This document shows, in pieces, positions 12,872 through 59,633 of a DNA stretch of 64,000 bases; the first letter of the stretch is position 1; each line of letters starts with the position of its first letter. The stretch is from Candidatus Ruthturnera sp. Tsphm01 (lineage in GTDB: Bacteria > Pseudomonadota > Gammaproteobacteria > PS1 > Pseudothioglobaceae), in contig CP125320.1 in assembly GCA_030142985.1 (NCBI GenBank), positions 1,245,639 through 1,309,638 of the forward strand, written 5' to 3'. The notes under the pieces are model-generated. The model was not told the origin of the DNA and did not search any database. It saw nothing but the letters and a program-made list of their open reading frames with translations. Position numbers and translations under genes: made by a program.

Positions 12872-13723
12872 ATGGGCGACGAAGACAAAAAACAATTAGA
12901 GCAAATACTTTGGGACATTGCCAACAGATTGCGTGGCAAGATGGATGCGGATGAGTTTAGGGATTATATTCTTGGGTTTATCTTTTACAAGTACCTGTCT
13001 GAGAAGATGGCGAGCTACGGAAATAAGCTATTAGCTGAAGACGGTATCACTTATCTATCACTTGATGAAGATAGTGCTGATGGCGCTGAGTATCTTGATG
13101 CGATTAAAGAAGAGTCAGTTGAAAAACTGGGTTATTTCCTAAAGCCATCTGAGTTATTTGGTGAGATTGCTAAGCGTGGTAATGGCGATACTGACAACTT
13201 TATACTTGAAGACTTGATGCAAATTCTGCGTAATGTTGAGCAAAGCACAATGGGCTACGAGTCTGAGGATGACTTCGGTCATTTGTTTGAAGACTTGGAT
13301 TTAACTTCTACTAAACTTGGTAGAACTGAAGAGGCTAAAAACACGCTAATTTCTAAGGTTTTATTCCACTTAGACCAAATTAACTTTGACCTTGATGACA
13401 TTGAATCTGACGTACTGGGCGATGCGTACGAGTATCTGATTGGGCAGTTTACTGCTGGCGCTGGTAAGAAGGCTGGTGAGTTCTACACACCTCAACAAGT
13501 ATCTAAAATCTTGGCTAAGATAGTCACCACTGGAAAGAGTAAGCTTAAGAGTGTGTACGACCCAACTTGTGGCTCAGGCTCGTTACTGTTGCGTGTGGCT
13601 AAAGAAGTTGATGACGTGTCGAATTTCTATGGTCAGGAGCTAAACCGAACTACTTACAACCTTGCTCGAATTGTAATCCTCCCATTTTTAACCACTGCTA
13701 AAAATAGAATTTCCGTTGTTTAA
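12872..13723 (+). pseudogene. hsdM: Type I restriction-modification methyltransferase HsdM, truncated by IS3
   Basis: HsdM is the adenine-methylating subunit of type I restriction systems. About 266 native residues are present: the N-terminal HsdM domain (LEQILWDIANRLRGKMDADE) and the start of the methyltransferase domain with GEFYTPQQVS and motif I DPTCGSGSLLL. The frame is interrupted at 13671/13672 by the end of an IS3 element, and the last 17 codons are IS sequence. The catalytic NPPF/Y motif and everything downstream (hsdS, hsdR) are missing, so the system is dead here. The lost part is not found elsewhere in the window. Confidence 0.9.
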
Positions 13724-14517
13724 ATAGCCTCAAGTAGCTTTCTTGGTGGAATGCCACCAATCGAACTATGAGGTCGTTCGTTATTATATACCCACATCCA
13801 TTGTGTTGCTAACGATTGAGCGTGCTCAATCGAATCAAAAATATGCATATTCAACCATTCGTTTCTTGCTGTTCTGTTAAATCTTTCTATATAGGCATTT
13901 TGGGTTGGTTTGCCTGGTTGTATATACATAAGCTCAATATCCATTGCTTGTGCCCATTCTCTGAGTATATGAGATATATATTCTGGACCATTATCACATC
14001 TGATGGCTTTGGGTTTGCTACGCCATTGAATAAGTTGCTCTAATGATTGAATCACTCGTTGTGCTGGTAATGAGTGGTCTATTTCAATGCTTAGACACTC
14101 TCTGTTGTAATCATCAATCACATTAAAGGTTCTAATTTTTCTACCTGTATTTAAAGAGTCTGACATAAAATCCATTGACCAAATTTGATTGATTGTCATT
14201 GGTACGCTTAAAGCTTGTGGCTTATCGCGTTTGATTCTTCTTCTAGGCTTAATCCTAAGATTGAGTTCTAGTTGCCTGTAAATACGATACACACGCTTGT
14301 GATTCCACCTAAAACCTTTTATGTTACGTAAATACATAAAGCACAATCCAAATCCCCATTGCTTGTGTGTTGTGGTTAATCGCAATAACCAATCAGCAAT
14401 TAGCTCATTCTCGGATGATAACTTTGGCTCGTACCGATAACATGTCTCGCTGATCTTAAAAGCCTGGCAAGCTAATCGTGCTGTTACTCTGTGTTTATTG
14501 ATACTCTGCTTGACCAT
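13720..14517 (-). CDS. IS3-family transposase OrfB (rve integrase core)
   Basis: The 265-residue OrfB carries the DDE integrase core: WSMDFMSD (first Asp), DDYNRECL, CDNGPEYIS (second Asp) and YIERFNRTARNEW (Glu), followed by YNNERPHSSIGG. N-terminal residues RVTARLACQAFKISETCYRY form the usual helix-turn-helix-like HTH_21 region. It is expected to be made as an OrfAB fusion by a -1 frameshift at the AAAAAAG near the end of orfA (see 45930). It ends 48 bp from the outer end of the element. Confidence 0.95.
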   Translation of the reverse strand: MVKQSINKHRVTARLACQAFKISETCYRYEPKLSSENELIADWLLRLTTTHKQWGFGLCFMYLRNIKGFRWNHKRVYRIYRQLELNLRIKPRRRIKRDKPQALSVPMTINQIWSMDFMSDSLNTGRKIRTFNVIDDYNRECLSIEIDHSLPAQRVIQSLEQLIQWRSKPKAIRCDNGPEYISHILREWAQAMDIELMYIQPGKPTQNAYIERFNRTARNEWLNMHIFDSIEHAQSLATQWMWVYNNERPHSSIGGIPPRKLLEAI

Positions 14518-14537
14518 CTTCTTACGTAAAGATGGTC

Positions 14538-14804
14538 TTAAAACTTTTTTGTTAATGCCTCTTGTACAATCATTGCCTTTAAGCGCTCATCGGCGTACAT
14601 CTTCTTAAGCCTTGTATTCTCTGCTTCAAGTTCTTTAAGTCTAGTTATCATTGATGTATCCATGCCGCCATATTTAGCACGCCATTTATAAAAAGTGGCA
14701 CTGCTCATACTGTGCTCTCTGCATAGTTCAGATACTGGCGTACCTGCTTGTGCTTGATTAAGAATTTGCATGATTTGTGAATCTGATTTACGTGTTGTTT
14801 TCAT
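14538..14804 (-). CDS. IS3-family transposase OrfA
   Basis: The 88-residue OrfA has a helix-turn-helix (QILNQAQAGTPVSELCREHS, SSATFYKWRAKYGG) followed by a leucine-zipper-like helix (LKELEAENTRLKKMY). It binds the element ends and, alone, usually limits transposition. The gene ends in ACA AAA AAG TTT TAA, the slippery site for the OrfAB fusion. Sequence is identical to the copy at 45676. Confidence 0.94.
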   Translation of the reverse strand: MKTTRKSDSQIMQILNQAQAGTPVSELCREHSMSSATFYKWRAKYGGMDTSMITRLKELEAENTRLKKMYADERLKAMIVQEALTKKF

Positions 14805-14875
14805 TTGAATCTCCTTATGTTTTGATTATAAGAAAATTCTACTTTTATTGGGTGTTAATTTTTGGGAGGATTACA

Positions 14876-43259: not shown

Positions 43260-44200
43260 TTTAGTCCCATACAATAATGTGATGAAATACAACAATTTAA
43301 CAAAAGCAAAACTATGGGACAAATACTTCACAGGCGTGCTACTACAACACAAGAAATCAGGAACAAAATTAAACAAGAGAAAGGAGCTATTAGTTCCATT
43401 GCCAAAAAATATAACATTGCCTGGAGTGCCGCAAAGAAATGGCAAAGTCGTGATACCCTTGAAGATAAACCAATGGGAAATGGTAGAGCAAACTCAAATT
43501 TAACGCTTGATGAAGATTGGCTAATATGCGAAGTTCGCAAGCTCACCTGGCTACCACTTGATGATCTTTGGTTATTGCTACAATCTATGTTTCCAAAACT
43601 CTCTAGTAGTGCACTACATAGAGTGTTGCAATATTATGGCATTAGTAAAAAACCAAAAGAATTACAACAAAAACCACAACGCTCAAAGTTTAAATCTTAT
43701 GAAATTGTCTACCTGCATATTGATATTACTGATTTTTGGCTTGAGAAAAAGAAATGGTCTTTGTTTGTAGCGATTGATAGGGAAACTAAATTTACCTATT
43801 GTGAAATATTTTCCAAAAAGACCATGCAAAACGCAATTACTTTTTTTTTGAAAAACACTTATAAGTTTTTCCCTTATAAAATCCATACTATATTGACAGA
43901 CAATGGGTTACAGTTTAGTTATAAAGCATTAGCAAAAGACTTAAAAACAAACAAAATTCATCCCTTTGATAAGCTTTGTGAAATGCAGGGTACTGAGCAT
44001 AGATTAACCAAATTTGCTCATCCTTGGACTAATGGACAAGTAGAAAAAATGAATCATATCATCAAGTCTGCAACACTAAAGCTGTTTCATTATGAAGGCA
44101 TTGATGAATATTCAAAGCATTTGGCAAAGTTTTTGAATTATTATAACTTTGAGATGAAATTAAAAAGCCTAGGGTTTAAATCTCCTTATGGTATGATTAT
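43260..44200 (+). mobile_element. IS481-type element, right end missing
   Basis: The left end TTTAGTCCCATACAATAATG (43260-43279) recurs at 55769-55788 next to another integrase fragment, identifying it as the element terminus. The body holds one transposase gene. On the right, the element stops inside the transposase C-terminus where an attC-like site begins, so the right end is lost. The exact right boundary is approximate. Confidence 0.7.
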
Positions 44201-44216
44201 TCCAGCCGACCGCTAA
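43314..44216 (+). CDS. IS481-family transposase, C-terminus altered at an attC junction
   Basis: The 300-residue protein has an N-terminal helix-turn-helix (SIAKKYNIAWSAAKKWQSR), then the DDE core: YLHIDITDFWLEKKKWSLFVA, ILTDNGLQFSYKA and HPWTNGQVEKMNHIIKSAT. The last residues PADR are encoded by an attC-like palindrome rather than by the IS. Usual family members have a few more C-terminal residues after PYG. It may be catalytically intact, but the element cannot move without its right end. Confidence 0.88.
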   Translation: MGQILHRRATTTQEIRNKIKQEKGAISSIAKKYNIAWSAAKKWQSRDTLEDKPMGNGRANSNLTLDEDWLICEVRKLTWLPLDDLWLLLQSMFPKLSSSALHRVLQYYGISKKPKELQQKPQRSKFKSYEIVYLHIDITDFWLEKKKWSLFVAIDRETKFTYCEIFSKKTMQNAITFFLKNTYKFFPYKIHTILTDNGLQFSYKALAKDLKTNKIHPFDKLCEMQGTEHRLTKFAHPWTNGQVEKMNHIIKSATLKLFHYEGIDEYSKHLAKFLNYYNFEMKLKSLGFKSPYGMIIPADR

Positions 44217-44243
44217 CGTGGCAGCTGAATTCAAACGTTAACA
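44199..44243 (+). other. attC-like integron recombination site, left part lost
   Basis: ATTCCAGCCGACCGC, a central TAACGTG, GCAGCTGAATTCAAACG and the terminal GTTAACA resemble the inner stem and right (R') side of integron attC sites. The left TAAC-type box is missing, replaced by the IS481 transposase end. The sequence closely parallels the complete site at 44895 (CCAGCTGAC...GTCAGCTGAATTCAA). A cassette gene begins 13 bp downstream. Confidence 0.65.
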
Positions 44244-44256
44244 TTAGGGATGTGGT

Positions 44257-44721
44257 ATGATAAAAAAAACGTTATTTTGTTGTATGGTGCTGTTCTACGG
44301 CTTGGTTTATGCTGCAGAGCCAGTTAACAAAAGTTTTTGGGATAATATTGCTATTGGCGGTTACGACGCTGTTGCCTACCATGAGCCTGATAACATAAAA
44401 CAACATAAAGCAATACAAGGTGATAGTTCATATCAATATAATTGGAAAAATGCAAAATGGTATTTTTCTAGTAAAAATAATCTTGACATGTTTATCAAAA
44501 ATCCAGATAAATACGCACCGATGTATAACGGATATTGTTCAAATGCACTTAGTTTAGGAGAGGGCTTAGTTAAAACTGATGGTACGCATTGGCAAATTTT
44601 TTCTGACAAACTACATCTTTTTTACTCAGCTCAAGGACGTAATCGTTGGGTTGAAGGTGATTATATGAAATATAAAAAAGTTGCAGATAAAGCATGGAAA
44701 GCAATCATTGAAGGGTATTAA
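44257..44721 (+). CDS. Secreted YHS-domain protein, likely integron cassette gene
   Basis: The 154-residue protein has a signal peptide (KKTLFCCMVLFYGLVYAAEP) and a YHS-type domain: GGYDAVAYHEPDNI, KWYFSSKNNLDMFIKNPDKY and YNGYCSNALSLG. YHS domains bind metal or occur in metal-handling and electron-transfer proteins; a specific role cannot be given. AGGGA lies just upstream of the ATG. It sits between two attC-like sites in the orientation expected of a gene cassette. Confidence 0.82.
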   Translation: MIKKTLFCCMVLFYGLVYAAEPVNKSFWDNIAIGGYDAVAYHEPDNIKQHKAIQGDSSYQYNWKNAKWYFSSKNNLDMFIKNPDKYAPMYNGYCSNALSLGEGLVKTDGTHWQIFSDKLHLFYSAQGRNRWVEGDYMKYKKVADKAWKAIIEGY

Positions 44722-44894: not shown

Positions 44895-44951
44895 TACTAA
44901 CAAATCATTCCAGCTGACCGCTTACGCGTCAGCTGAATTCAAGCGTTATGT
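44895..44951 (+). other. attC-like integron recombination site (complete)
   Basis: The site starts at ACTAAC (44896-44901), runs through AAATCATTC, stem CAGCTGAC (44911-44918), loop CGCTTACGC, complementary GTCAGCTG (44928-44935), AATTCAAGC and ends in GTTATG (44945-44950). The 8-bp central stem is perfect and the outer boxes are spaced as in short attC sites of about 55-60 bp. It follows the YHS and small membrane protein genes in the correct orientation. Immediately after it a truncated transposase starts. Confidence 0.75.
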
Positions 44952-45604: not shown

Positions 45605-45675
45605 TGTAATCCTCCCAAAAATTAACACCCAATAAAAGTAGAATTTTCTTATAATCAAAACATAAGGAGATTCAA

Positions 45676-45942
45676 ATGAAAACAACACGTAAATCAGATT
45701 CACAAATCATGCAAATTCTTAATCAAGCACAAGCAGGTACGCCAGTATCTGAACTATGCAGAGAGCACAGTATGAGCAGTGCCACTTTTTATAAATGGCG
45801 TGCTAAATATGGCGGCATGGATACATCAATGATAACTAGACTTAAAGAACTTGAAGCAGAGAATACAAGGCTTAAGAAGATGTACGCCGATGAGCGCTTA
45901 AAGGCAATGATTGTACAAGAGGCATTAACAAAAAAGTTTTAA
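45676..45942 (+). CDS. IS3-family transposase OrfA
   Basis: The product is identical to that of the copy at 14538-14804: helix-turn-helix at the N-terminus (SDSQIMQILNQAQAGTPVSE) and a Leu-zipper-like helix (LKELEAENTRLKKMYADERL). Stop codon TAA at 45940 comes directly after the slippery sequence, so most ribosomes make OrfA alone and a fraction make OrfAB. Confidence 0.94.
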   Translation: MKTTRKSDSQIMQILNQAQAGTPVSELCREHSMSSATFYKWRAKYGGMDTSMITRLKELEAENTRLKKMYADERLKAMIVQEALTKKF

Positions 45943-45962
45943 GACCATCTTTACGTAAGAAG
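45930..45962 (+). other. Programmed -1 frameshift signal for OrfAB
   Basis: A AAA AAG (45930-45936) is in the correct register of the orfA frame (ACA AAA AAG TTT TAA). A stem-loop follows immediately: GACCATCTT and AAGATGGTC pair over 9 bp around TACGTAAG. Slipping back one base continues as VLRPSLRKKMVKQS into orfB. This is the standard IS3 mechanism and gives the full-length transposase. Confidence 0.85.
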
Positions 45963-46760
45963 ATGGTCAAGCAGAGTATCAACAAACACAGAGTAACAGC
46001 ACGATTAGCTTGCCAGGCTTTTAAGATCAGCGAGACATGTTATCGGTACGAGCCAAAGTTATCATCCGAGAATGAACTAATTGCTGATTGGTTATTGCGA
46101 TTAACCACAACACACAAGCAATGGGGATTTGGATTGTGCTTTATGTATTTACGTAACATAAAAGGTTTTAGGTGGAATCACAAGCGTGTGTATCGTATTT
46201 ACAGGCAACTAGAACTCAATCTTAGGATTAAGCCTAGAAGAAGAATCAAACGCGATAAGCCACAAGCTTTAAGCGTACCAATGACAATCAATCAAATTTG
46301 GTCAATGGATTTTATGTCAGACTCTTTAAATACAGGTAGAAAAATTAGAACCTTTAATGTGATTGATGATTACAACAGAGAGTGTCTAAGCATTGAAATA
46401 GACCACTCATTACCAGCACAACGAGTGATTCAATCATTAGAGCAACTTATTCAATGGCGTAGCAAACCCAAAGCCATCAGATGTGATAATGGTCCAGAAT
46501 ATATATCTCATATACTCAGAGAATGGGCACAAGCAATGGATATTGAGCTTATGTATATACAACCAGGCAAACCAACCCAAAATGCCTATATAGAAAGATT
46601 TAACAGAACAGCAAGAAACGAATGGTTGAATATGCATATTTTTGATTCGATTGAGCACGCTCAATCGTTAGCAACACAATGGATGTGGGTATATAATAAC
46701 GAACGACCTCATAGTTCGATTGGTGGTATTCCACCAAGAAAGCTACTTGAGGCTATTTAA
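45963..46760 (+). CDS. IS3-family transposase OrfB (rve integrase core)
   Basis: The 265 residues are identical to those of copy 1, with the DDE residues in WSMDFMSD, CDNGPEYIS and YIERFNRTARN. The ATG at 45963 lies in the frame reached by the -1 shift, so independent initiation is not required. Complete identity of the two copies points to recent transposition. Confidence 0.95.
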   Translation: MVKQSINKHRVTARLACQAFKISETCYRYEPKLSSENELIADWLLRLTTTHKQWGFGLCFMYLRNIKGFRWNHKRVYRIYRQLELNLRIKPRRRIKRDKPQALSVPMTINQIWSMDFMSDSLNTGRKIRTFNVIDDYNRECLSIEIDHSLPAQRVIQSLEQLIQWRSKPKAIRCDNGPEYISHILREWAQAMDIELMYIQPGKPTQNAYIERFNRTARNEWLNMHIFDSIEHAQSLATQWMWVYNNERPHSSIGGIPPRKLLEAI

Positions 46761-46808
46761 ACAACGGAAATTCTATTTTTAGCAGTGGTTAAAAATGGGA
46801 GGATTACA

Positions 46809-55270: not shown

Positions 55271-55617
55271 GGGGATGACATGGCTTCGACGAGGAGTTGG
55301 ATCTCAAGGATGCATGCCGAGGATAAAGACAACTCGTAAAATACGCTTTAAAAAGATAGTTGCAAACGAAAACAACTACGCTCTAGCTGCATAGCTAGCC
55401 GTCACTTAGAGGGTGTCTGTACTTTTAGGATGACGGTCGCTCACAGACTCGCTAGGATTATTTTTTTCACATAATTCGGTTAAAACTTGTTGGGAATCGC
55501 CACTTACATCCCTGATGGTCGGGTGGTAAGTGGCTAACTAAAATAGACCAAGCTAAGCATGTAGACTTCTTGTTTGAAAGTTTTCGGACGCGGGTTCAAT
55601 TCCCGCCATCTCCACCA
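55271..55617 (+). ncRNA. ssrA: Transfer-messenger RNA (tmRNA)
   Basis: tmRNA rescues stalled ribosomes and tags the nascent chain for degradation. The 5' end GGGGATGACATGGCTTCGAC and the 3' end, a T-arm (CGCGGGTTCAATTCCCG) followed by CCATCTCCACCA, form the tRNA-like domain. The tag frame begins with GCA at 55362 and encodes ANENNYALAA before TAG at 55392-55394. Pseudoknot regions lie between. The gene is a common integration site for P4-type elements, and a piece of such an integrase begins 63 bp downstream. Confidence 0.97.
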
Positions 55618-56024: not shown

Positions 56025-56102
56025 TGTTAACCTTTACAAAGCTTTGCTCACCGGTAAATTGGGAACGTAGCGAGTAATTTATCCGCGTGCAGTAACTTGT
56101 TA
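56025..56102 (-). other. attC-like site after the PLP-enzyme gene
   Basis: On the minus strand, TAACAAG directly follows the stop codon of the PLP gene. After it come TTACTGCACGCGG, ATAAATT, a loop, AATTTACCGGTGAGC and finally GTTAACA at the other end (56025-56031). The inner GCACGCGGATAAATT and the complement of AATTTACCGGTGAGC match imperfectly, as in larger attC sites of the Vibrio type. Total length is 78 bp. Orientation matches the gene before it. Confidence 0.6.
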
Positions 56103-57290
56103 TTACTTAGCTAGGATGTTTTTTAAAACATCCACAAAGTGGTCAATTTCTTCATTGGTATTGAAGTAGTGAACAGATGCTCTGACGACTTCTTTTAAGC
56201 CTCTTTTTTCAAAAGAGACTAAGTTACCAGAGCCTTTTGAGGTTGATACGTTAATTCGCTGCTTAGATAAGGCCTGCTTGATTGCTACTGGCTCTAGTTG
56301 ATCTGCGGTAAAAGTTATGATACCGCATTTTTCTACTCCATCATCGGTTGAATGGATTCCATCAATCTGTGATAGTTTTTGGCGCAGATTGTCAGCTAGC
56401 GGGTATATTCGTTTTTGTATCGCATCTAGATCCCAGGACAAAGCATAGTCAATCGCAACCCCTAGGGCATATTTACCAGCACAGTATTGTTCCCAATTTT
56501 CAAAGCGTTTACTATCTGGGCGGATGAGGTATTCTGTGGGAGAGATGAGTTCTGCAGCGTGTTGGTCTAGTATGGGTGGTTCTAATTTATTTAAGAGTGA
56601 GTTTCTTACGAATAACAGGCCTGTTCCCCTTGGCCCTCTAAGGTATTTTCTACCAGTGATACAAAGTACGTCACAACCTATTTCTTCAACGTCGATGGGC
56701 ATGTGCCCGACACTTTGACAGGAATCTAGAATGTAAGGAATGCCCGCAGCGTTGGCTATTTTCCCTACAGCTTTAGCTGGATTAACCAGACCTCCACCTG
56801 TGGGTATATGCGTGATAGAAATGAGTTTAACTTTTTCATCAATCATATTAGACAGGGCGTTTACATCTATTTGCCCAAATTCATCATTCGGCACAAATAT
56901 GACATCTACACCAAAGCGTTTCGCTTGCTGTAGATAAGCAATTACATTGCTGCCGTATTCTGCGATGGTGGTTAAGATTTTGTCACCAGGGTTGAACTTA
57001 AAGGAGTAGAAAGCCATATCCCATGCACGCGTTGCATTTTCGACATAAGCAATTTCACTAGGCGAACAATTCAAGAGTTTTGCAGCAGATAAATAGATAC
57101 TATTTAGTGATTCTGCGTATAAATTTTCTGCCTCATAGCCACCAATTTGTTCTTCTTTATTTAGATATTCATGTAGTGCTTTACTGACAGGGGTTGGCAT
57201 TAAAGAAGCACCAGCATTATTGAAATGGATAAGGTCAATGCAAGCAGCCGTTTCTTCTCTAGCACGTTTAATGTCGAAAGTATTTATCAT
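56103..57290 (-). CDS. Aminotransferase class V / cysteine desulfurase-like PLP enzyme (cassette gene)
   Basis: The 395-residue protein begins INTFDIKRAREETAACIDLI and contains FNNAGASLMP, the PLP-contacting YILDSCQSVGHMPID with Asp189 and Gln192, and the Schiff-base Lys in CITGRKYLRGPRGTG (Lys215). These match the fold-type I class V family that includes cysteine desulfurases, isopenicillin N epimerase-like and EgtE-like C-S lyases. The substrate cannot be fixed. attC-like sites follow it and precede it, so it appears to be a gene cassette. Confidence 0.85.
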   Translation of the reverse strand: MINTFDIKRAREETAACIDLIHFNNAGASLMPTPVSKALHEYLNKEEQIGGYEAENLYAESLNSIYLSAAKLLNCSPSEIAYVENATRAWDMAFYSFKFNPGDKILTTIAEYGSNVIAYLQQAKRFGVDVIFVPNDEFGQIDVNALSNMIDEKVKLISITHIPTGGGLVNPAKAVGKIANAAGIPYILDSCQSVGHMPIDVEEIGCDVLCITGRKYLRGPRGTGLLFVRNSLLNKLEPPILDQHAAELISPTEYLIRPDSKRFENWEQYCAGKYALGVAIDYALSWDLDAIQKRIYPLADNLRQKLSQIDGIHSTDDGVEKCGIITFTADQLEPVAIKQALSKQRINVSTSKGSGNLVSFEKRGLKEVVRASVHYFNTNEEIDHFVDVLKNILAK

Positions 57291-57329
57291 TTAATTTTGG
57301 CTACTCTATTGGTTTTTTTAATATAACGG

Positions 57330-58325
57330 GAGACCTTTGCGTAATTCATAATTTCTCACCCTAATTCCAATTTCTATATTTTTTCAAAAATATTTTCAAA
57401 ATTTGCTGTTTTTTTCCAACAAAACCTAAAAACATCTTGTTTTTCTAGTGCTTTCAAACTTGATTTTTCTATTTTTACTCTTTCTTTGCTCATTAGACAC
57501 AACAATCCTTCAAATCTTGCATTTGTTTAAAAATATTCATTCCAGTTTTAAGATTATGACTCATGGCAATGAGTTGTACTCTAGTCTTATTTCTCTCTAA
57601 TCCAAGATATCTTGCCTTGGCTAATCCGTGATGAAGCTTAAGTAGTCCAAAGGTGCGCTCAACAATATAACGAATGCTGGAGCGTTGTTTGTTTTCTTGT
57701 TTTTGTTGGTCTGTCAGTGGCGTGTTTCTGTAAGCCCTATGTAAAACCTTGTTGTTGTGCTTACCCAGTTTTTCATTATTGTTTGGCTTCTGTAACGGTG
57801 GCATCAATGATGTTGATTGAGCCTAATGAGACGATAATTGAATTTTGCTCTAAATGGTTGTTTATTTGCTTTAGTAGAGGTTCTAAGAGTTTTTCAGTAT
57901 TGAGCAGTTGTCTAAAACGCCAAATGCTGGAACGGTCTGGCACATTCTCAGATAGGGATAAATCAATAAAACGTCTGAACATCAAGTCTCTGGCAATTTG
58001 CTTTTCTAGCGCCTCATCATTTAGACCGTACCAAACTTGAAGGATTAGGATTTTAAACATCATCAGTGGCGGATAACTAGGTGCACCTAGTCTAGATGAA
58101 TACAAGTTCGAAAGTGTTTGCTCTATCTCAGACCAATTGATGATGTTGTGTACATCATCTAGCTCCGATAGAGATTTATGCTGAACAACAAGAGAATCTG
58201 CAAATGAGTTTTGTTCGGTGTTTTTCCAAGACATGCTTAATTTTTTAGAGTTGTTTTTAGATGGGTGTTATTTTATCATACGGGTGGTTTCTTTGATTTT
58301 TTTAGTTGATTTATGCAAAGGTCTC
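57330..58325 (-). mobile_element. IS5-type element with internal deletion (996 bp), AACGG target duplication
   Basis: The ends GAGACCTTTGCG (57330) and GCAAAGGTCTC (58325) match those of the complete copy, and AACGG flanks both sides (57325-57329 and 58326-58330). About 270-290 bp inside the transposase gene are missing compared with the 1266-bp copy. It inserted into the attC-like site that separates the DoxD-like and PLP genes. Confidence 0.9.
57493..58234 (-). pseudogene. IS5-family transposase with internal deletion and frameshift
   Basis: The N-terminal part (58234 to about 57776) reads as in the complete copy up to NIIDATVTEAKQ. The C-terminal part (to 57493) resumes at NNEKLGKHNNKVLHRAYRNT and ends DLKDCCV. 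The missing region holds the second catalytic Asp. In the complete gene the sequence AACAAT occurs at both break sites, so slippage between short direct repeats explains the deletion. Confidence 0.9.
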
Positions 58326-58378
58326 AACGGGTGAATTCAACTGCCGCGTTAACGGTCGGCTGGAATGAATTGTTAGGA
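58326..58378 (-). other. attC-like site after the DoxD-like gene, split by IS5
   Basis: On the minus strand the order is CCTAACAATTCATTCCAGCC, GACCG, a TTAACG turn, CGGCAGTTGAATTCACC and CGTT. Removing the IS5 element and one AACGG copy restores a terminal CCCGTTATAT. The sequence is close to the sites at 44199 and 44895 (CATTCCAGC..GACCG and GCAG.TGAATTCA). It begins 38 bp after the stop of the DoxD-like gene in matching orientation. Confidence 0.7.
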
Positions 58379-58415
58379 TTATTTTTAATAATTAAGCATT
58401 GTACTTCATTATCTT

Positions 58416-59297
58416 TTATTTTATTCTCTTGAATACTTTTGTGATTACTGAATTAATAGTATGCGAATGACCGCCTCCGAATATAAATAACACAACACCG
58501 CCTGCAATAAATGCAAATTCGCGTTTGAATCCATTTAGGTTGCCAATAAGAGATTTGTCTATATTCAGTTTATGAACCATATACCACAACATAATCAATA
58601 TTAGAATAATACTAATATAACGGAGACCAGCGCCTCCAACGATTAAAATAGCTGTTAATAATAAAATCCATGGTGTTGATGCAAATGTTTGAATATTGGG
58701 CATACTGAAAAATATTGCACCAATACCTAGAGGTATTGCCAATGAAAGTCTGAGTAAAAGACCTAGAATATCCCAGTTAATGTTTGTATTAATAGCAGGT
58801 AAGCGAAAGAGTTTTTCATCCAAACTATAAGCACCAGAACCTAAATTGTATAATACAAACATCATACCTGATAAAGCAATATCGCGAATTTGTACAAAAA
58901 TTGCAGGAGCAAGATAGGTTTTAACTGTAACTTCTATACCAGGCACCGTTACCGTTGGTAATGCTACAACAAATGTCCATAATAAGAAACCATATAATAA
59001 ACTTAAAGGACGCACGGCAAGACCAACAATTAAAGCAATACCACTAATAAACTCAAATGTAGATAATGAAGTTAAAAACCACCATGGCGAAAGTTGACCG
59101 GAGGCAAATAAAAAGTCAACAAAAAATTGATTAACATAACCGCTTGTTCCCCAGTAAGATGCTAATATTTTTTCTTGTAATGCTGGATTAAGTAATTGAC
59201 TTAATTTATTAATACCACCAATTACAAAAACTAATCCTAAACCAACTCGAAGTATTAACGGCGTCATTACCATTGCATTTTTATTTTCTATACTCAT
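58416..59297 (-). CDS. DoxD/DoxX-family membrane protein (cassette gene)
   Basis: The 293-residue protein has about seven hydrophobic segments and the family start TPLILRVGLGLVFVIGGINKL. DoxD is the small subunit of thiosulfate:quinone oxidoreductase, and DoxX-type proteins also occur in unrelated stress roles. In a sulfur oxidiser, a thiosulfate role is attractive but unproven, and no separate DoxA is seen nearby. A C-terminal GGGHSHTINS segment is unusual. It is followed by an attC-like site and so may be a cassette; the 250 bp upstream contain no gene. Confidence 0.75.
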   Translation of the reverse strand: MSIENKNAMVMTPLILRVGLGLVFVIGGINKLSQLLNPALQEKILASYWGTSGYVNQFFVDFLFASGQLSPWWFLTSLSTFEFISGIALIVGLAVRPLSLLYGFLLWTFVVALPTVTVPGIEVTVKTYLAPAIFVQIRDIALSGMMFVLYNLGSGAYSLDEKLFRLPAINTNINWDILGLLLRLSLAIPLGIGAIFFSMPNIQTFASTPWILLLTAILIVGGAGLRYISIILILIMLWYMVHKLNIDKSLIGNLNGFKREFAFIAGGVVLFIFGGGHSHTINSVITKVFKRIK

Positions 59298-59467
59298 AAA
59301 ATATATCCTATGTTGTACCTAACTATTAGTATAAGGACATATTCCTTTATACACTCTATTAAAAACAACACTATGTAAAAATGCTGTATTTTTGCCACTT
59401 TCTTAGTCTAAAATAAATTTTTACTTAAGGGCACCTCTAAAAACCTCATTATAACACCAAAAAATCT

Positions 59468-59513
59468 TGTAATCCTCCCATTTTTAACCACTGCTAAAAA
59501 TGGGAGGATTACA
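59468..59513. repeat. 46-bp miniature derivative of the IS3 element
   Basis: The sequence starts with 34 bases identical to the orfB-side end of the IS3 copies (TGTAATCCTCCCATTTTTAA...) and closes with GGGAGGATTACA, so both terminal repeats are kept with nothing between. It forms a long palindrome. Flanks (ATCT, TCCC) show no duplication. It looks like an excision or deletion relic. Confidence 0.8.
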
Positions 59514-59547: not shown

Positions 59548-59633
59548 TGGTGCCGATGGCCGGAGTCGAACCGGCACAAGCGTAGCTTACTACCCCCTCA
59601 AGGTAGCGCGTCTACCAATTCCGCCACATCGGC
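59548..59633 (-). tRNA. tRNA-Leu (GAG)
   Basis: The 86-nt gene on the minus strand has acceptor GCCGATG pairing with CATCGGC, a long variable arm as required for Leu, and anticodon loop TTGAGGG with anticodon GAG (CTC on the plus strand at 59597-59599). CCA is encoded. It lies just downstream of secG, the same place as leuU in E. coli. A weak AGCCTT/AAGGCT hairpin lies at 59523-59539 beyond its 3' end. Confidence 0.95.

Follow-up and report, generated by a model that had tools for sequence, protein, structure and literature searches.

The array between ssrA and tRNA-Leu

The window, by which we mean the whole stretch of 64,000 nucleotides that was analysed, is contained in a complete genome of 1.52 Mb of clam/mussel-symbiont-like character. 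Within it, ssrA (55271-55617) and a tRNA-Leu gene (59548-59633) bracket an array on the minus strand, and between the two there lie, all on that strand, a DoxX-family gene, an IS5-like element whose transposase is split, and a gene for a PLP enzyme. In the order of minus-strand transcription the locus is an attI-DoxX-attC58-PLP-attC56 array without intI, in which an attC stands 3' of each single gene, in gene orientation, and an attI lies directly 5' of the first cassette, as expected of integron cassettes. The gene positions and strands which an earlier note had given for the two genes hold as described; the attI copy and the exact insertion of the IS5-like element, with CCGTT on both sides, are features beyond that note. 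The features of this locus, followed by those of the cassettes near 44 kb, are given below.

59468-59513, no strand: 46-bp palindromic IS remnant with TGTAATCCTCCCA ends, between the attI copy and tRNA-Leu
59322-59428, minus: attI copy, 107/107 identical to the intI-linked attI at 1.147 Mb; ends TAATAG^TTA directly 5' of the DoxX cassette
58416-59297, minus: cassette gene 1, DoxX-family membrane protein of 293 aa (DoxX 5.9e-10), first cassette 3' of attI
58322-58378, minus: attC58, attC of the DoxX cassette, Ruthturnera-type, 57 bp (E 1.3e-11)
57331-58329, minus: IS5-like element, split DUF772 + DDE transposase, inverted repeat GAGACCTTTGC, at the attC58/PLP junction with CCGTT each side
56103-57290, minus: cassette gene 2, class V aminotransferase-fold PLP enzyme (Aminotran_5), SufS/EgtE-like, under all cut-offs
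56034-56105, minus: attC56, attC of the PLP cassette and array end, estX-type by homology to the estX attC, GTT changed to TTT
44191-44243, plus: attC marking the left edge of the YHS cassette (E 1.8e-8); a transposase gene has taken the place of the attC 5' end
44257-44721, plus: YHS-domain cassette gene (NF041384, 108.9 bits, cut-off 70)
44895-44951, plus: attC of the YHS cassette (E 4.5e-20), by synteny the far end of the ancestral array between intI and glmM

The earlier note had described both genes as bounded by attC sites and proposed that an attC model be applied and the sites compared between loci. A covariance model was trained on 11 attCs of the lineage, all outside the window, across which the helix is kept (89% of cells paired, vs at most 29% when slid), and at E < 1e-7 it returned three matches in the window: 44895-44951 (+), 58322-58378 (-) and 44191-44243 (+). 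The palindrome 3' of the DoxX gene is thus an attC, with a score of 52.9 bits, and it clusters with the 44-kb sites because it is 83-88% identical to them. The start of the DoxX cassette, TTAGGT, fits the start of its attC, TCCTAAC, as does that of the intI-linked cassette, TTATAC, the start GTATAAC of its own. A plain regular-expression scan for R'' and R' boxes was dropped, since it missed real attCs.

The site 3' of the PLP gene neither matched the lineage covariance model nor clustered with the 44-kb sites, and the proposed comparison was borne out for attC58 only. The attC56 sequence aligns over 64 bp, at 86% identity, with the attC that the estX cassette carries in class 1 integrons, and this homology supersedes hairpin scores as the basis for its assignment. 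In a BLAST search of the PLP-side region against phage records, the match was a resistance integron in a P1 isolate; among plasmids, 561 records match the attC56 region at 80-95% over ~65 bp, and in an annotated plasmid the match sits between estX and psp in the order intI1-estX-psp-aadA2-cmlA1-aadA1. Its boundaries were placed by alignment with the estX attC and with plasmid sequences from marine Pseudoalteromonas and Vibrio, which puts the R'' box at 56099-56105 and the R' core, or crossover triplet, at 56038-56040 (-), where TTT is found and GTT expected. The terminal motif GTTAACA previously assigned to this site (56025-56031) falls beyond the true R'. On the strength of these alignments, we regard attC56 as a genuine attC of another type than attC58, its triplet having decayed to TTT. 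Both attCs share the orientation of their genes and are opposite to the 44-kb sites, as the earlier note had it.

Neither gene has an orthologue in the 11 other genomes of the genus, a comparison with relatives that had been suggested as a test of whether they are ordinary operon members. We give scarcely any credence to the view that the locus is an ordinary chromosomal operon whose palindromes are terminators or chance inverted repeats. Its one attraction is that the hairpins of attC58 and attC56 are not exceptionally stable (the folding z of the single bottom strand is -0.5 for the former and +0.45 for the latter, vs about -3 for 44895-44951 and the intI-linked attC, and between 35/1000 and 188/1000 shuffles scored as well as the attC56 hairpin), yet it is contradicted by attC homology at both sites, by the identity of the attI copy to the intI-linked attI and by the lack of both genes in all 11 congeners. 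In the wider family the DoxX-family gene has one relative, in genome G055, which is 83% identical and interrupted; it adjoins a DEAD-box helicase gene and no attC was found nearby, so that the gene can also occur outside a cassette. The PLP protein has similarity to enzymes of the SufS/EgtE type and falls below every NCBIfam curated cut-off shown. In a sample of the whole class, its nearest orthologue shares 68% identity with it and, judged by eye, does not lie in an array; by eye the orthologues elsewhere in the class likewise had no attC-like flank.

The IS5-like element is inserted at the R' box of attC58 and CCGTT is duplicated on both sides of it; read on the minus strand and with a slash at each junction, the sequence runs ...GAATTCACCCGTT/GAGACCTTTGC...GCAAAGGTCTC/CCGTTATATT... 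The DoxX and PLP cassettes were evidently contiguous before this insertion. As attC56 has lost its GTT and the element separates the cassettes, the array is probably now partly frozen. On the other side, from 59429 on, the sequence past the attI copy is unrelated to the intI locus. Separately, an IS of ~1.2 kb is present in the window in two full copies (13672-14875 and 45605-46808), with the same TGTAATCCTCCCA ends as the remnant at 59468-59513.

The 44-kb cassettes and the split of the rnf-glmM integron

In the related genome G006 the array is whole and runs from intI to glmM in the order rnf-TSUP-intI-attI-cassettes-glmM. By comparison with it, the 44-kb cassettes are the glmM-proximal end of an ancestral integron of that order, the far end of the original intI-glmM array, which was severed by rearrangement. 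In the present genome the 44-kb attCs still stand to the left of glmM, but intI and attI, together with one cassette, lie ~142 kb away; the old array was therefore split. At the left edge of these cassettes, a transposase gene (43314-44216) overlaps the attC at 44191-44243 and takes its last codons (ending IIPADR and a stop) from attC sequence.

Given the inverse orientation of the two groups, the earlier note had suggested either two separate cassette loci or a single array that a rearrangement had divided. The split stands for the 44-kb array. The array beside ssrA does not just represent the other half of that array, because it has an attI copy of its own and the intI-linked attI is still at 1.147 Mb, and the genome as a whole has at least five cassette loci. 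A single inverted array, whose halves, the ssrA cassettes on the attI side and the 44-kb cassettes on the glmM side, would have been parted by a flip of the glmM-ssrA block, accounts for two cassette groups that flank this block in opposite orientation, for a window attI identical to the intI-linked one and for the direct contact of the G006 array with glmM; moreover, large rearrangements are common, ssrA and tRNA-Leu/secG being far apart in most relatives. However, a clean flip would leave the number of attI sites unchanged, and beside intI at 1.147 Mb there is still an intact attI, followed by a first cassette of its own; the inversion needs an added duplication step. The left neighbour of the 44-kb site is also argS, vs a DEAD-box gene after ssrA in G006. 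We therefore consider the inversion unlikely, if still a serious contender.

A distant integrase and dispersed attI modules

The window attI, identical over 107/107 positions to the intI-linked attI, is 93% identical to the same region in G006. All attI copies have the common end TAATAG^TTA and diverge past it, as would be expected of an attI crossover point. No intI remnant lies within 1.5 kb of the window attI, and the nearest intact intI, the sole one in the genome (G000:1146394-1147347; TIGR02249, 426 bits vs a cut-off of 265), is 157 kb off. Its product matches the solved Vibrio IntI4 end to end. The gene adjoins TSUP-rnfA-rnfB-rnfC-queA, as it does in G006, G011 (a congener, Ca. Ruthturnera CSMAG_640) and G049 (Ca. 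Thiodubiliella), and the rnf-TSUP-intI order is conserved across these three and the present genome, G000.

It is conceivable that IntI inserted the cassettes at a random secondary, attG-like site near ssrA. Integrases can use non-attI sites (PMC12901181, PMC12444791) and isolated attCs are scattered in G011, yet such an event cannot supply the 107 bp identical to a real attI 5' of the first cassette. We regard it as highly improbable; the attI copy rules it out for the ssrA array, and it may hold for isolated attCs elsewhere.

Our best explanation, which we hold to be quite probable as a whole, is instead an intI-less, attI-headed cassette array with possible service in trans, the 44-kb cassettes having been cut off from the original intI-glmM array. 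Since the junctions are exact, the cassettes would have been inserted one by one at the window attI by an integron integrase through attI x attC recombination. This attI may once have had an intI of its own, since lost, and now abuts IS debris beside tRNA-Leu; its route of copying to the ssrA side is putative, and no copy matching an IS with a GGGCACCTCT end, as at the attI junction where TTAA meets GGGCACCTCT, was found among the sequences compared. The IS5-like element would have landed later in the cassette boundary, and the last attC would have lost its GTT. The attI, the two cassettes, both attC types, the IS5 insertion and the remoteness of intI are established directly, and from the sites we infer that the distant IntI filled the array. 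As the sole intact IntI stands 157 kb off and would be the only remaining candidate enzyme, any current activity at the array must be in trans, and we hypothesise that it may still act there. Against this explanation are an attC56 without GTT, an attC58 which, as a single strand, folds no better than shuffles, and the DoxX homologue of G055 outside a cassette.

The window attI is not solitary. A search with the crossover-proximal 23 bp, allowing up to 3 mismatches, found 6 copies in this genome and 1-7 in each of 12 other family genomes, mostly of two genera; the reversed pattern, used as a control, gave ~0 except in G049 (15 matches, presumably an unrelated AT-rich repeat), yet six of the true matches in G049 are exact. 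The copies here lie after rnr (662 kb), after metH (486 kb), at 482 kb (cut by an IS5), at intI, in the window and at 501 kb (weak). At several of these attCs follow, and many copies in the other genomes also have attCs 3'. The attI-headed array after rnr (L076:8100-10480, genome 660-662.5 kb) encodes a GNAT protein, two small proteins and a secreted protein, a candidate carbonic anhydrase-like protein by eye, and has three attC types in a row.

Beside some copies there is a complete intI or an N-terminal piece of one (G054, with three remnants, G049:1096k and G051:440k), and beside others none, such that intermediate states can be seen among the related genomes, namely a full intI beside attI, an N-terminal remnant of intI beside it, and attI alone. 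The dispersed modules look like intI-attI copies whose integrase decayed. One might alternatively take them for miniature transposable elements or for repeated promoters that stand before cassettes by chance, and their number (1-7 per genome) and internal inverted repeats agree with this. We think it very unlikely, however, given that in several genomes the module is located between intI and the first cassette, that it stops precisely at G^TTA, beyond which the cassettes vary, and that an in-register N-terminal intI remnant is kept at several loci.

Within a genome, the final 50 columns of the attI module alignment remain alike (mean 0.92), including in pairs with just 54% identity in their upstream halves; the between-genome mean for such pairs is 0.86 (permutation p 0.0025, on 12 same-genome pairs that are not independent). 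This likeness within genomes hints at concerted evolution or at co-adaptation to one enzyme, and does not imply proof of use in trans. In G011, no recognisable attI module was found beside the intact intI (L061:12860-13060), and an attI with attCs is on another contig (C117), an arrangement that appears to be a natural case for IntI action in trans. The same genome has ~20 attC sites over many contigs, several of them apparently solitary. We tentatively propose, at somewhat less than even confidence, that in Ruthturnera- and Thiodubiliella-type symbionts one IntI may serve dispersed attI platforms in trans, with ~45 bp of crossover-proximal attI kept alike within each genome by concerted evolution despite divergence in the rest of the module.

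Relation to known integron arrangements

Our literature search, of partial coverage, found no work on integrons in vesicomyid symbionts nor on several attI platforms served by a single IntI. Dispersed clusters that lack an integrase are known from Xanthomonas, where CALINs occupy several fixed loci away from intI (PMC12444791), and an IntegronFinder table gives 4 CALINs and 1 In0 for the Bathymodiolus septemdierum symbiont and 3 CALINs for that of B. thermophilus (PMC10295459). The ssrA-side array resembles a CALIN in having two attC-bounded cassettes without a nearby integrase, potentially mobilisable in trans by an IntI elsewhere, and it differs from a complete integron, in which intI adjoins attI. 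Unlike a CALIN, which is defined by attC alone, it is headed by an attI copy identical to that of intI, and other arrays, in this genome as well as in relatives, are likewise headed by attI modules. In the Delta-attI gene cassettes of class 1 and 2 integrons (PMC12901181), attI copies also occur outside the usual integron place; these are mostly short attI fragments that replace attC at a cassette end, whereas here 107 bp of attI precede a separate array elsewhere on the chromosome. The intI-attI-cassettes order at a conserved rnf-TSUP position in two genera, with similar, lineage-specific attCs, is that of a sedentary chromosomal integron, and the differences are the several dispersed attI copies, the one intact intI per genome and the short arrays.

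Cassette clusters that have no integrase are commonly regarded as remnants that lack a landing site. In these host-associated, sulphur-oxidising symbionts the clusters carry attI copies apparently homogenised with the intI-linked attI, and our results suggest that tools which define clusters by attC alone overlook attI. In these genomes the idea of an integron in which a single enzyme serves many platforms can be tested; if that reading is true, the integron in these organisms would be a distributed system and not a single array.
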